IMG/VR virus record: IMGVR_UViG_3300038451_000187
Coordinates: 1 to 55,815 of that record
Length of the DNA stretch: 55,815 nucleotides
Source of the DNA: a virus
Strand: one strand, 5' to 3'
Shown here: positions 5,850 through 43,253 of the stretch, one piece after another
Position numbering within the stretch: position 1 is the stretch's first letter
Layout of the letters: each line of letters begins with the position of its first letter
Notes under the pieces: generated by a model
Databases searched by the model: none
Told to the model about the DNA's origin: nothing
Seen by the model: the letters and a program-made list of their open reading frames with translations, nothing else
Program-made: the position numbers and the translations under genes

Positions 5850-5951
5850 ATGCAATTCAAAGCAATAGGTGGAAAGGCTCGACGCAAACAGAAGCGTATC
5901 AGGGGTAAGAAACTCAAAAGATTGCCGAATCAACGCAGAGGTGGAAGGTGA
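5850..5951 (+). CDS. Very basic 33-residue peptide
   Basis: ATG 5850 sits 6 nt after GAAAGGAG (5836-5843). The product is 33 residues with roughly half Lys/Arg and two Gly pairs near its ends, ending in GGR. Its TGA overlaps the GTG start of the next gene (GTGA). Clean ribosome-binding site spacing and stop/start overlap support translation. A nucleic-acid-binding or virion-packaged basic peptide is inferred from composition alone. Confidence 0.55.
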   Translation: MQFKAIGGKARRKQKRIRGKKLKRLPNQRRGGR

Positions 5952-6691
5952 CGACGCCAGGGCAGCCTCCCACCTACCCCACGACTAGCGATTTCGCTCT
6001 CCTGCAACGAGCGCAAGATTTTCTTCTCGAACCTCGGTCGGCGGTTGCTCCCATCACCATTGCGAGCACCATGTGGTCAGTGCAAACTTTGGTCGATATG
6101 CTCAATTACAAATGCAAAAGGTTCCTTCGGGAAACCGGTTTAGTTGTGGCGAGGCTAGGGTATGACGGGATAGGAAGCGACCACTCTATTGCCCTGACGC
6201 CGGGGCTTGAGTCGGTGACGCTCCCTCAAAATCTTGTCGATCCGCTCCGGCTTGCCTTCGTCAACTACGACACCTCGGTTAATCGTAATGTCGTATCGGT
6301 CCAAGACGTTCCGCGCGAGGACTTCCTGAGCCTCGACGCTGGAGATCAGGACTGGGAGAGTACGCCAGCGCCCCAGCCGACGGGCTATACGCAGTCGATT
6401 ACGCAAACCTTGGAAGCGTTCCTCGCGCATCCGCCCAGCGACATAGCGGCGATCGACCTGACGTTCGTTGCGTTCAGCGGGACGCTGACCGGGCTCGGCG
6501 TGGCATTGGGGATTCCGCCAGAGTTCGTTCAGTACCCACTCTACGGGATGTTGCAGGACGCTTACAGTGTCGAAGGGGAAGCGTACAACCAAGCGCTCTC
6601 AGACTATTGCGGGCTCAGGTGGTCGGAAGGCGTAATGCTTGCAAAGTGTCTACTTGAGGCCCCGTCGTTCCAGGACCCGGAGGCAGTCTGA
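5948..6691 (+). CDS. Second adaptor/connector-like structural protein
   Basis: GTG start in a GTGA overlap, 247 residues. The segment MWSVQTLVDMLNYKCKRFLRETG followed by a beta-rich part (LTPGLESVTLPQNLVDPLRL) resembles phage connector proteins with an N-terminal helical bundle and a beta insertion. It lies between another adaptor-like protein and the nozzle-like protein and shares stop/start bases with the latter (TGATG). It may be a second ring of the tail connector, or a paralogue of the upstream protein; I infer this mostly from context. Confidence 0.45.
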   Translation: MTTPGQPPTYPTTSDFALLQRAQDFLLEPRSAVAPITIASTMWSVQTLVDMLNYKCKRFLRETGLVVARLGYDGIGSDHSIALTPGLESVTLPQNLVDPLRLAFVNYDTSVNRNVVSVQDVPREDFLSLDAGDQDWESTPAPQPTGYTQSITQTLEAFLAHPPSDIAAIDLTFVAFSGTLTGLGVALGIPPEFVQYPLYGMLQDAYSVEGEAYNQALSDYCGLRWSEGVMLAKCLLEAPSFQDPEAV

Positions 6692-40135: not shown

Positions 40136-40524
40136 GCGCGACAGGGGCAGTCTTATTCCCGACCGGGAAAATCGGATGGTTCGAAATGCACACCATCGTG
40201 CCGGGCTGGTACTCGACGGTCTATGCCGACTATCGCACGGCGAACGAGCACTGGTACGACAAAGCTCCGCGCACCGAATGTCACTGTGGAGAGGCTCAAC
40301 GGATTACCCTTGTACAGTTAACCGATGGCTATTGGTACTGGCCTGCCGTTGCGTGCGAGACTTGCCTCCAATTCTTAGGAGCGTGCAGCATGGAAGGCCA
40401 GGAAGAGGTGGTTTGGGACTTCAAGCGCGATGGGGTTCCAGACTGGTTTGAGAAGGCTCTGCGACGGGCCTTAGAAAAGGAGAAACATGAAAACAGCGAC
40501 GGAAATATCCAACGTCAGCAATGA
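40132..40524 (+). CDS. Hypothetical protein with Cys pairs
   Basis: 130 residues. W-rich strands (GWFEMHTIVPGWYSTVYADYRTANEHWYD) are followed by ECHCGEAQ and ACETCLQFLGAC, possible zinc ligands. Its 3' end overlaps the RAMP-like gene by 38 bp. Function unknown. Confidence 0.5.
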   Translation: MSATGAVLFPTGKIGWFEMHTIVPGWYSTVYADYRTANEHWYDKAPRTECHCGEAQRITLVQLTDGYWYWPAVACETCLQFLGACSMEGQEEVVWDFKRDGVPDWFEKALRRALEKEKHENSDGNIQRQQ

Positions 40525-41089
40525 TGCGGAATCGACAATCATGGTTCCGTACCAAGCTGAAGTCGAAGTTGTCGGGACCGCAGCACTTCTCTTTCACCGC
40601 TGGAGCGTGGACGGGGTGGAAGCGAAGTCCAAGGCGGCGAAGGGTTCCAAGGCCAAAAAGGAAGATGACCTTGAGAGCTACGTGTACCGTGACTCGAAAG
40701 GCATCCTATGTGTTCCTGGTGAGTACTTCCGCATGGCCATCGTCAACGCTGCGAAGTACCGGCAGGATCCCCGGTCGCCACGCAAGTCGGCGATGGACAT
40801 CACGAAGGCTGGCGTTGTCGCGATGAGTCCGCTTTGCTCCCTCGGCGTGAAGGATTGGGATGAGGTGGACCGTCGTCGTGTGACGATCCAGAGGAACGCA
40901 ATCACTCGCTCCCGGCCAGCGATGAAGGAAGGTTGGAAGTGTCGCTTCACCCTCCAAGTGCTTTTGCCGGAGTATATCAACTCGGCAATGCTGAATGATC
41001 TCATCCAGCAAGCGGGTAGGCTCATCGGGGTCGGAGATTTTCGTCCGACTTTTGGTCGCTTTCAGGTCGTCGGGTTCAAGGTTTTGTAG
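40487..41089 (+). CDS. RAMP/Cas7-like phage protein
   Basis: ATG 40487 after AAAAGGAG; 200 residues. Motif order fits a RAMP (Cas7-like) fold: VEVVGTAALLFHR near the N-terminus (G..pLLf.r), LCVPGEYFRMAIVNAAKY (PG...R.A), a middle RRVTIQRNAITRSRPAMKEGWKCRFTLQVL, and a Gly-rich C-terminal LIGVGDFRPTFGRFQVV (GxGdxRPxfGrf). The family resemblance is my pattern inference. Cas7-type proteins bind single-stranded nucleic acid at regular spacing. A 5-nt-periodic array begins 6 nt after its stop, which makes binding of that array (as RNA or ssDNA) an attractive idea. Confidence 0.5.
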   Translation: MKTATEISNVSNDAESTIMVPYQAEVEVVGTAALLFHRWSVDGVEAKSKAAKGSKAKKEDDLESYVYRDSKGILCVPGEYFRMAIVNAAKYRQDPRSPRKSAMDITKAGVVAMSPLCSLGVKDWDEVDRRRVTIQRNAITRSRPAMKEGWKCRFTLQVLLPEYINSAMLNDLIQQAGRLIGVGDFRPTFGRFQVVGFKVL

Positions 41090-41094
41090 TGACA

Positions 41095-41403
41095 CGGCTC
41101 GATGCGGTTGGATATGTTCGGGCCGGGCTGGGTGTGCTTTGGTGAGGTCGGGTAAGCCATGATGAGTTGAGGTAGGGCAAGCTGGGTTGTGGTGATGTCC
41201 GGTGCGGCAGGGTAGGATTCGGCAAGGTATGCAGTGGATGGGCGAGGTTTGGTCGATTCAGGCTTGTAACGCCTTGGCGGGGTGAGACGAGTTCAGGTTG
41301 GGCAAGTTCGGGTAGGCTGTGGCTCAGAATGGTTGGATGGGGTCCGATAGGGTTTTTGTGGTGGGGTCAGTTGTGCTGAGGTGAGTCCTGGCATGGCATG
41401 GGT
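41095..41403 (+). repeat. Degenerate pentamer array, period 5 nt, consensus N-G-N-Y-N
   Basis: Splitting 41095-41354 into 52 consecutive pentamers puts G at position 2 in 49 (exceptions at 41195, 41255, 41325) and a pyrimidine at position 4 in nearly all; position 3 is usually G. After a one-nucleotide phase shift, nine more pentamers (41359-41403) all have G at position 2. Units differ in the other positions, so this is not a simple microsatellite, and period 5 excludes a coding frame. The + strand is strongly G-rich. The region sits between the RAMP-like and SbcC-like genes and has no ORF. Confidence 0.85.
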
Positions 41404-41423
41404 TCTATGAAAAGGAGAAACCG

Positions 41424-43253
41424 ATGATAGAACAAATCCAATTGGCTGACTATAGGTCGCACAAGGCGACGAACATTTTCCTCTCAGCTTTCAACCTTTT
41501 TTTGGGAGCGATGGGAAGCGGTAAGTCGTCCGTTCTGCACGCACTGAGTTTACTTTTGTGCGGAGAAAATCCAATCATAAACAGAAAGGGAGAAGGTTTG
41601 AGGATGGAAATCAGACTAGGCTCTGATTCATTCCGCATCGCTTGCCGAATGTCTGGAGGGATTGTAATTGACCAAGCGGTCAACGCGAAAACTAACCGTA
41701 TCGGGATCAACGGTGATTACTCAGATGTTCGTTTGCAACGAGGCACTATCAAGACATTGTTGAAGTGCAGTCCAGAAATTGTGCAATTACTTTTGGATCC
41801 TTCTCCAATCTGGAATCGCAAAGAGGAAGACCAGCGTAAGGTTTTGTTGCAGTTGATGAGCCAAGCAGAATTAGAGGCTCCGCCGCTGGTGAAAAAAATG
41901 AACCTTGCGACGAGTTTCCGATCTGTTGGCGTAGTTGACGAAATGATAAAGTCTCTCAAAGAGGTTCGCATTCGCGACCTGAACCGGGAAGTTGATAAGT
42001 TGCAGGCGCAGATTCCCGAGGCCGTCGAACTGGCTGGCGGCAAGGTTGTGGACGTGGCGCCGTTGAAGGCTCGCCGGGATACGGCGATCGCCAAGCAAGC
42101 GGCCCACGAGGAATGGAAGCGGACGTTGGAGAGCCTCCAGAAAGAAGCCGCTGGCGCCGAAGGGGTGGCGACGCTCAAGGCCAAGCTCACTTCCACTGAG
42201 GAGCAATGGCGCGTTGCGCAGCAAGCGCTTGAAAACCTTCGCGCCGAGTACCACAAGAAGCTATCTGGGCTCAACGAAGGCAAGGAGAAGGTCTCTGCAA
42301 CGAATCAGAATGTCATCAAACTCAGGGCGACTCTCAAGAGCATGTCGGGCATGGGGGCGAAGTGCGGGGTGGTGGACATCTTCAAGTGCCCTCTCACGGT
42401 TGCCGACATGAAGAAGATGCACGGCGAGGTCACCATACAACTGCAAGACGCAGAGGCAGACTTGGAGGCCCTTTCGTCGGGCGTCAAGGGCCTGCAAGGG
42501 GATGTCACCGGCCTCGAAACCAAGGGGGCGGAACAGAAGAAAGAATACGAGCGGCTGACTGGGGAAGTTGCCACCGTCAAGCAGGCCATCACGCACGCCG
42601 AGGATCTTGCGGCCCGTCTTGCCAAGCACCAATCTTCGTCGCTGGAGACTGGCAACTGGCCCGACGAACTGGCGAAGGCCAGCGAGGCGCTCACCGCCGC
42701 CGAGATCAAGAACTTGGATATCCAGAAAGCGCAAGACATCAATGCATCGCGCTCCCTCCAAGTGACCGCTGTGCGGTCGAAGCAATCCGAGGCCGAGGAA
42801 CTGAAGGCGGCCGTCGAGGAACTTGCGGCCCTCAAGGAAACCCTGCTGAAGGCGGGTTCGTCGCACTTCGTCGAGGAAATGCAGGCCATCCTCAGCGAGT
42901 TTGGCTTCGAGCAGGTCGAATACTCCAATGAACCCTTCGGGTTCTTCGCCGATGGGCTCGGCGCCGAGCAACTCTCTGGTGGCCAGAAGGTGCTCTTGGA
43001 AGCGGCGTTGCGGCTCGCCGCGGCGAAGGCGTCGGGGCTGAACATCATGGCGCTCGACGACGCGAACAAGTTGGGCGAGAAGGCTCGCAACAAACTGGCA
43101 GGGATCCTGCTGAAGGCTGGCGTGCAGGTCATCATCTGTAGCACAACTGAAATCCGCCCGGAACCACAGAAATTGCCAGAAGGATTCAAGATACTTTGGT
43201 TTACCAATGAGAGCCCAATTGGGCCGACAGTCGTGGATAACATCCATGCGTAA
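41424..43253 (+). CDS. SbcC/Rad50-like ATPase
   Basis: ATG 41424 after AAAAGGAGAA; 609 residues. IQLADYRSHKATNIFLSAFNLFLGAMGSGKSS gives the N-terminal strand and Walker A; a long coiled coil (~190-460) is interrupted by KCGVVDIFKC, a possible hook. The C-terminus has the ABC signature EQLSGGQKVLLEAALRLA and Walker B LNIMALDDA, where Asp replaces the usual catalytic Glu. SbcC/Rad50-like proteins process DNA ends. The first ~190 codons are AT-rich while the rest is GC-rich, suggesting a mosaic gene. Confidence 0.7.
   Translation: MIEQIQLADYRSHKATNIFLSAFNLFLGAMGSGKSSVLHALSLLLCGENPIINRKGEGLRMEIRLGSDSFRIACRMSGGIVIDQAVNAKTNRIGINGDYSDVRLQRGTIKTLLKCSPEIVQLLLDPSPIWNRKEEDQRKVLLQLMSQAELEAPPLVKKMNLATSFRSVGVVDEMIKSLKEVRIRDLNREVDKLQAQIPEAVELAGGKVVDVAPLKARRDTAIAKQAAHEEWKRTLESLQKEAAGAEGVATLKAKLTSTEEQWRVAQQALENLRAEYHKKLSGLNEGKEKVSATNQNVIKLRATLKSMSGMGAKCGVVDIFKCPLTVADMKKMHGEVTIQLQDAEADLEALSSGVKGLQGDVTGLETKGAEQKKEYERLTGEVATVKQAITHAEDLAARLAKHQSSSLETGNWPDELAKASEALTAAEIKNLDIQKAQDINASRSLQVTAVRSKQSEAEELKAAVEELAALKETLLKAGSSHFVEEMQAILSEFGFEQVEYSNEPFGFFADGLGAEQLSGGQKVLLEAALRLAAAKASGLNIMALDDANKLGEKARNKLAGILLKAGVQVIICSTTEIRPEPQKLPEGFKILWFTNESPIGPTVVDNIHA

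Follow-up and report, generated by a model that had tools for sequence, protein, structure and literature searches.

A pentamer array adjoining a RAMP/Cas7-like gene in a virus genome: a probable VIPR locus and its predicted guide RNA

Results and discussion

A degenerate array of pentamers located at positions 41090-41403 of an IMG/VR virus record was analyzed together with its homologues; the window, as used below, is the whole stretch of 55,815 nucleotides of this record. With a probability of about 94%, we consider this locus to be a member of VIPR (Viral Interference Programmable Repeat), a relative of CRISPR serving RNA-guided recognition of DNA, which a preprint of 2026 (PMC13142463, bioRxiv 2026.04.26.720920) describes as composed of a phage-encoded RAMP protein and of vrRNA guides made of tandem YNNGG repeats (PMC13142463). 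The array itself is very probably a VIPR guide RNA (vrRNA). The evidence consists of the family and predicted fold of the adjoining protein, the motif of the array, a near-universal linkage between gene and array, and a one-base-skip code observed at the level of the clade. The original prediction had proposed that the array is a guide or periodic ligand of a Cas7-like protein, which is supported by the Vipr family membership and the published YNNGG guides; it had also spoken of an undescribed system, which no longer applies now that VIPR has been described (PMC13142463). Our literature search found no further paper on VIPR.

Layout and periodicity of the pentamer array

The array comprises 62 units with a single 4-nt slip and occupies the whole intergenic space, on the plus strand like both flanking genes. 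It begins at 41090 (TGACA), right behind the stop codon of the upstream gene, and is organized as follows: a first run of 53 pentamers N-G-G-Y-N (41090..41354), in which GGY is the scaffold and NN the variable part; the slip TTTG (41355..41358), read directly in the sequence, which shifts the pentamer register; and a second run of 9 pentamers (41359..41403). An extent of 41095-41403 had been announced, all of which was retained, the start being moved to 41090. Within 41095-41354, 49 of the 52 pentamers carry G as their second letter (G2) and 48 have a pyrimidine as their fourth, and all 9 pentamers of the second run carry G2; this agrees with the N-G-N-Y-N pattern initially reported for a non-coding gap, over which we found no ORF of at least 60 aa. 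G3 is present in 32/52 window pentamers, below the clade mean. The 20 nt between the array and the start codon of the next gene are filled by a short leader (TCTATGAAAAGGAGAAACCG, 41404..41423, plus strand) which contains the ribosome-binding site of that gene, and there is therefore no space for a structured 3' tail of the kind found in type II VIPR.

The autocorrelation of G at lag 5 is 0.64, versus 0.30-0.48 at lags which are not multiples of 5, and is detectable up to lag 30. The period-5 score reaches 133.6, versus a mean of 12.0 (SD 4.9, maximum 35) in 5000 first-order Markov shuffles, an excess of about 25 SD; the expected lag-5 signal is thus far above shuffled sequence. The array region gives the strongest period-5 signal of the whole 55.8-kb window, and a dynamic-programming detector applied to the whole window called one array (41080-41404, score 164) and no second one. 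The predicted RNA structure of the window array does not go beyond shuffles (fold z -1.0), no terminator-like site was found near the array, and Rfam gave no array-related match in the window and in selected loci. A weak promoter-like site (41089-41118, 9/12 matches) overlaps the start of the array.

The vipr gene and its neighbours

The upstream gene (vipr, 40487..41089, plus strand) encodes a 200-aa RAMP/Cas7-like protein with a C-terminal glycine-rich loop, GVGDFRPTFGRF. Its product belongs to phrog_4652, a family whose function is not known (2.9e-19), and a profile of 61 homologues strongly matches one solved chain, PDB 36pp, 'SUSP1 Vipr protein' (E 3.5e-38). Three residues, G181, P187 and G190, are invariant across these 61 homologues. 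The AlphaFold2 model (pLDDT 90.5) has as top Foldseek matches the Csm3/Cas7 subunits of CRISPR complexes of types III and VII (best E 2.4e-7, TM about 0.54), to which the identity is about 10-15%. Pfam, NCBIfam and PADLOC gave no family for this protein. By profile and model, the gene is a member of the Vipr family with a predicted RAMP/Cas7 fold, and the RAMP/Cas7-like character initially attributed to it is borne out.

The downstream gene (41424..43253, plus strand) encodes an SbcC/SMC-like ATPase (phrog_77, 6.3e-11; SMC_N, 7.3e-11). The original prediction had placed the array in a recombination cluster: SbcC-like and RecT neighbours are indeed present, but they are part of the surroundings only, since the clade has no conserved neighbour gene. 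Across 82 clade loci we found no conserved neighbour or accessory family beside vipr, and there is no sign that the SbcC-like gene belongs to the VIPR system, the neighbourhood of vipr not being shared in the clade. Distant Vipr homologues stand in other gene contexts, e.g. the tail genes of Medea1; phrog_5926 is found beside vipr in SUSP2, Medea1 and prophiBWHA-1. One sub-clade, formed by L072:3644-4132 and six related loci, carries a gene of RusA Holliday-junction resolvase immediately 3' of vipr (Pfam 4.4e-20), possibly an accessory gene.

Linkage between arrays and Vipr homologues

Loci of Vipr homologues were gathered from IMG/VR, GTDB genomes and phage records, and arrays were detected by dynamic programming with a pentamer profile taken from the window, linkage being retained for a score of at least 20 at no more than 1.5 kb from the homologue. 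A sense-strand array was present near the gene in 195/200 loci, which include near-identical relatives and are not all independent, and an opposite-strand array in 5/200. The five loci lacking a sense array include contigs which end near the gene (L115, L196 and L150). No control contig reaches a score of 25 (0/60, 522 kb; top score 21.2), these 60 viral contigs having been fetched for an unrelated purpose. The anticipated co-occurrence of such arrays with the RAMP-like family is therefore observed, and it extends to homologues of 27-31% identity: Suspvirus SUSP2, Pseudomonas phage Medea1 and a Mycobacterium abscessus prophage. The periodicity is kept among homologous loci despite unrelated sequences. 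Cultured relatives of the window's clade include phage DSL-LC04, and Thermomonas flagellata is among the carriers of a prophage.

Arrays of the window's clade are distributed as follows relative to vipr: downstream only in 29 loci, upstream only in 21 and on both sides in 60. They frequently start a few nt from the vipr stop codon, and their length has a median of 27 and goes up to about 148 pentamers. The clade profile (n=5764 pentamers) shows G2 at 0.93, G3 at 0.77 and Y4 at 0.91, positions 1 and 5 being almost unconstrained; it is partly circular, as the detector was trained on window pentamers, whereas the linkage, strand and shuffle controls are not. In terms of sequence composition, the clade arrays correspond to the published GGY/NN pattern.

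A one-base-skip code in the arrays

The vrRNA is reported to recognize double-stranded DNA by the NN dinucleotides only, with one unpaired target base between successive pairs (PMC13142463). Words of eight NN dinucleotides from all arrays were compared with the collected loci, arrays being masked, with skips of 0 to 4 bases. At skip 1 we obtained 74 distinct words and 228 hits, versus 1-7 hits in shuffled arrays (here and below, overlapping words are counted repeatedly and independent targets are fewer than the word counts); at skips 0, 2, 3 and 4 the 2-6 distinct words correspond to the shuffle level. Guides of the window's clade alone behave alike: at skip 1 they give 18 eight-dinucleotide words versus 0-3 after shuffling and seven nine-dinucleotide words versus 0-1, and the other skips are at background for both lengths. 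At the level of sequence matches, the one-base-skip rule of the preprint is reproduced on other data and extended to the window's clade.

Convincing individual targets, of 9-15 dinucleotides, are located in other VIPR phages. The array of L104 matches about 10 consecutive dinucleotides of L043 at skip 1, that of L114 about 14 of 15 dinucleotides of L072 at skip 1, and that of L077 a site lying 5' of vipr in six relatives. Where arrays count 19-30 dinucleotides, only about 8-15 are matched, which suggests that these arrays contain two or more guides. The skipped base falls at codon position 3 in 8/12 unambiguous sites, a sample too small for a claim. The array of L155 (near 4077), the guide of a Medea1-like prophage, matches at skip 1 the vipr gene of related prophages (L129:598-620, L130:3091-3113 and related loci), which on this match looks like VIPR aimed at VIPR; VIPR directed against VIPR is also described in the preprint (PMC13142463).

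The window's own array gave no 8-dinucleotide skip match in its own genome or in the collected loci, and a mismatch-tolerant search of these loci gave results equal to shuffled arrays. IMG/VR was scanned with four 8-dinucleotide patterns, i.e. 32/63 dinucleotides of the array, which returned 4, 1, 28 and 27 stretches. None of the matches of these 32/63 dinucleotides extends convincingly, the best gaining two dinucleotides, and the stretches were taken as chance on account of this poor extension into adjoining dinucleotides.

Diversity of arrays among related loci

Several features of the arrays were observed among the relatives. The arrays of L057:2441-3000 and L058:2581-3000, whose vipr genes share 94% nucleotide identity, differ by a single whole unit of about 140 nt; this block consists of an array segment flanked by the two halves of an inverted repeat (TTTCATTGGAAA/TTTTTCCAATGA), which suggests that guide units are gained or lost whole, as cassettes. 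Register slips in clade arrays are mostly +1 (160/239 non-pentamer steps), and only few target hits bear on whether a match can run across such a slip. Hairpin-forming inserts interrupt the pentamer arrays of L001:11800-11870 (e.g. TTCTTAGTGGGGC...GCCCCACTAAGAA) and L010:5810-5860, and inserts of this kind are absent from the window array. In SUSP2 (L016:4540-4770 and 5930-6130), the arrays, about 60 nt long, precede pseudoknot-looking tails (GTAGTTAGTCTCAGCTAC...GAGACT), which agree with the tail described for VIPR type II vrRNAs. Finally, GGY/NN arrays antisense to vipr are present in L021:2483-2744, L022:2784-2908 and L079:2587-2651, loci which also carry sense arrays; these antisense arrays argue for independently transcribed, trans-acting RNAs.

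Alternative explanations

The position of the arrays could also be read as that of a cis-acting leader or trailer RNA, Vipr binding its own transcript at the pentamers and regulating its own operon as TRAP does with NAGNN repeats, the NN being uninformative. Indeed, the arrays abut vipr, mostly lie on the same strand and span the interval from the stop codon to the next ribosome-binding site, with a regular spacing like that of TRAP sites. Against this, matches between the NN dinucleotides and foreign DNA at skip 1 far exceed those of shuffled arrays, and opposite-strand arrays exist (L021, L022, L079), which together make this explanation very improbable. Moreover, SUSP1 vrRNAs act in trans, a reporter with a skip-1 target being repressed by Vipr and an array (PMC13142463). 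A literature search on pentanucleotide repeats and TRAP-like proteins returned nothing relevant.

The location of the window locus inside a recombination and replication cluster would fit a DNA site, such as iterons or an origin, for the neighbouring RecT and SbcC-like proteins. The arrays nevertheless accompany vipr and not RecT/SbcC: no neighbour family is conserved in the 82 clade loci, arrays stay with vipr where RecT/SbcC are not near, as among the Medea1 tail genes, and the 60 control contigs contain no array of any kind, so that we regard a DNA site as extremely improbable. A functionless pentanucleotide microsatellite, decayed after replication slippage, would account for tandem, unbroken units between genes with one slip. 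Decay would however hit every position equally, whereas positions 1 and 5 are nearly free and position 2 is more than 90% fixed. Likewise, a comparison of 22 pairs of related arrays shows the lowest divergence at position 2 (0.021) and the highest at positions 1 and 5 (0.078 and 0.080), positions 3 and 4 diverging nearly as much (range of 0.06-0.08 outside position 2). Arrays of unrelated sequences recur at nearly all Vipr loci, and the skip-1 target matches also contradict a microsatellite, the chances of which are practically negligible. The units are degenerate and devoid of spacers; the initial statement had set aside a microsatellite and a CRISPR-like repeat on the ground that the units are not copies of each other.

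Proposed mechanism and significance

For a VIPR locus, the following scheme can be proposed. The array would be transcribed on the sense strand, and Vipr subunits would bind its RNA, one per pentamer, gripping the GGY triplets and exposing the NN pairs. About 10 or more pentamers would pair with DNA, with one unread base between consecutive NN pairs, and the Vipr-guide complex would repress or block this DNA, which would most likely belong to a rival phage or to a satellite. Several guides, either overlapping or placed one after another, are probably encoded by the 62-pentamer array. Biochemistry, sRNA-seq and repression have been reported for SUSP1 (PMC13142463), and transcription, RNP formation and repression would by analogy take place in the window phage. 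How many guides the window array holds, what it targets and the one-to-one ratio of subunits to pentamers are inferences of ours.

The window system is possibly a long-array variant. A broader reading, which we hold only tentatively and think rather unlikely, is that the window's clade represents a variant of VIPR whose very long arrays, lacking both tail and accessory gene, act as multi-guide RNAs, through processing into staggered overlapping guides or through end-to-end coating by Vipr; end-to-end coating would involve dozens of Vipr subunits, and any register of about 10 pentamers could read a target.

These results place a whole clade of environmental phages within VIPR, and the noncontiguous one-base-skip code is confirmed independently from sequence data, including a clade outside the tested type II systems. 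With long arrays that lack a tail, the question arises of how the limits of each guide are set. VIPR is proposed by its authors to be older than CRISPR (PMC13142463); if so, systems without accessory genes, such as this one, could represent RNA-guided recognition of DNA in a simple form.

Comparison with known systems

VIPR is carried primarily by phages, prophages or archaeal viruses (PMC13142463), and the window is a virus record of IMG/VR. A Vipr protein is a RAMP homologue built on an RRM core, with a glycine-rich loop, and the window's protein agrees with this by profile match and predicted fold. The window locus and its family resemble VIPR by a homologous, phage-encoded RAMP protein, Vipr, flanked by tandem GGY/NN arrays, and, at the family and clade level, by one-base-skip matching to the DNA of other phages. 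Seven VIPR types are described. Type II, that of SUSP1 and P. fulva, combines a vap gene next to vipr with vrRNAs whose 9-16 repeats lead into a structured tail which does not vary; other types include staggered arrays, ribozyme-interspersed arrays and single vrRNAs (PMC13142463). Unlike type II, the window has a single uninterrupted array of 62 pentamers, against 9-16 repeats in each vrRNA; a structured 3' tail is not detectable, and there is no vap gene, the SbcC-like ATPase gene being found downstream instead.

TRAP (trp RNA-binding attenuation protein) is a multimer which binds short, regularly spaced RNA repeats; its fold is unrelated to Vipr and its repeats carry no target information. 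The RAMP proteins of Class 1 CRISPR-Cas (Cas7/Csm3) form an oligomer along the guide RNA with a regular footprint, and share with Vipr the same predicted fold with a glycine-rich loop, according to Foldseek. Among the genes scanned around the window locus, no cas gene other than that of the RAMP-fold protein was found. The window differs from Class 1 CRISPR-Cas in that its units are degenerate rather than copies of one repeat and have no spacers, its RNA has a period of 5 nt versus 6 nt, the predicted pairing is noncontiguous, and a single small protein takes part.
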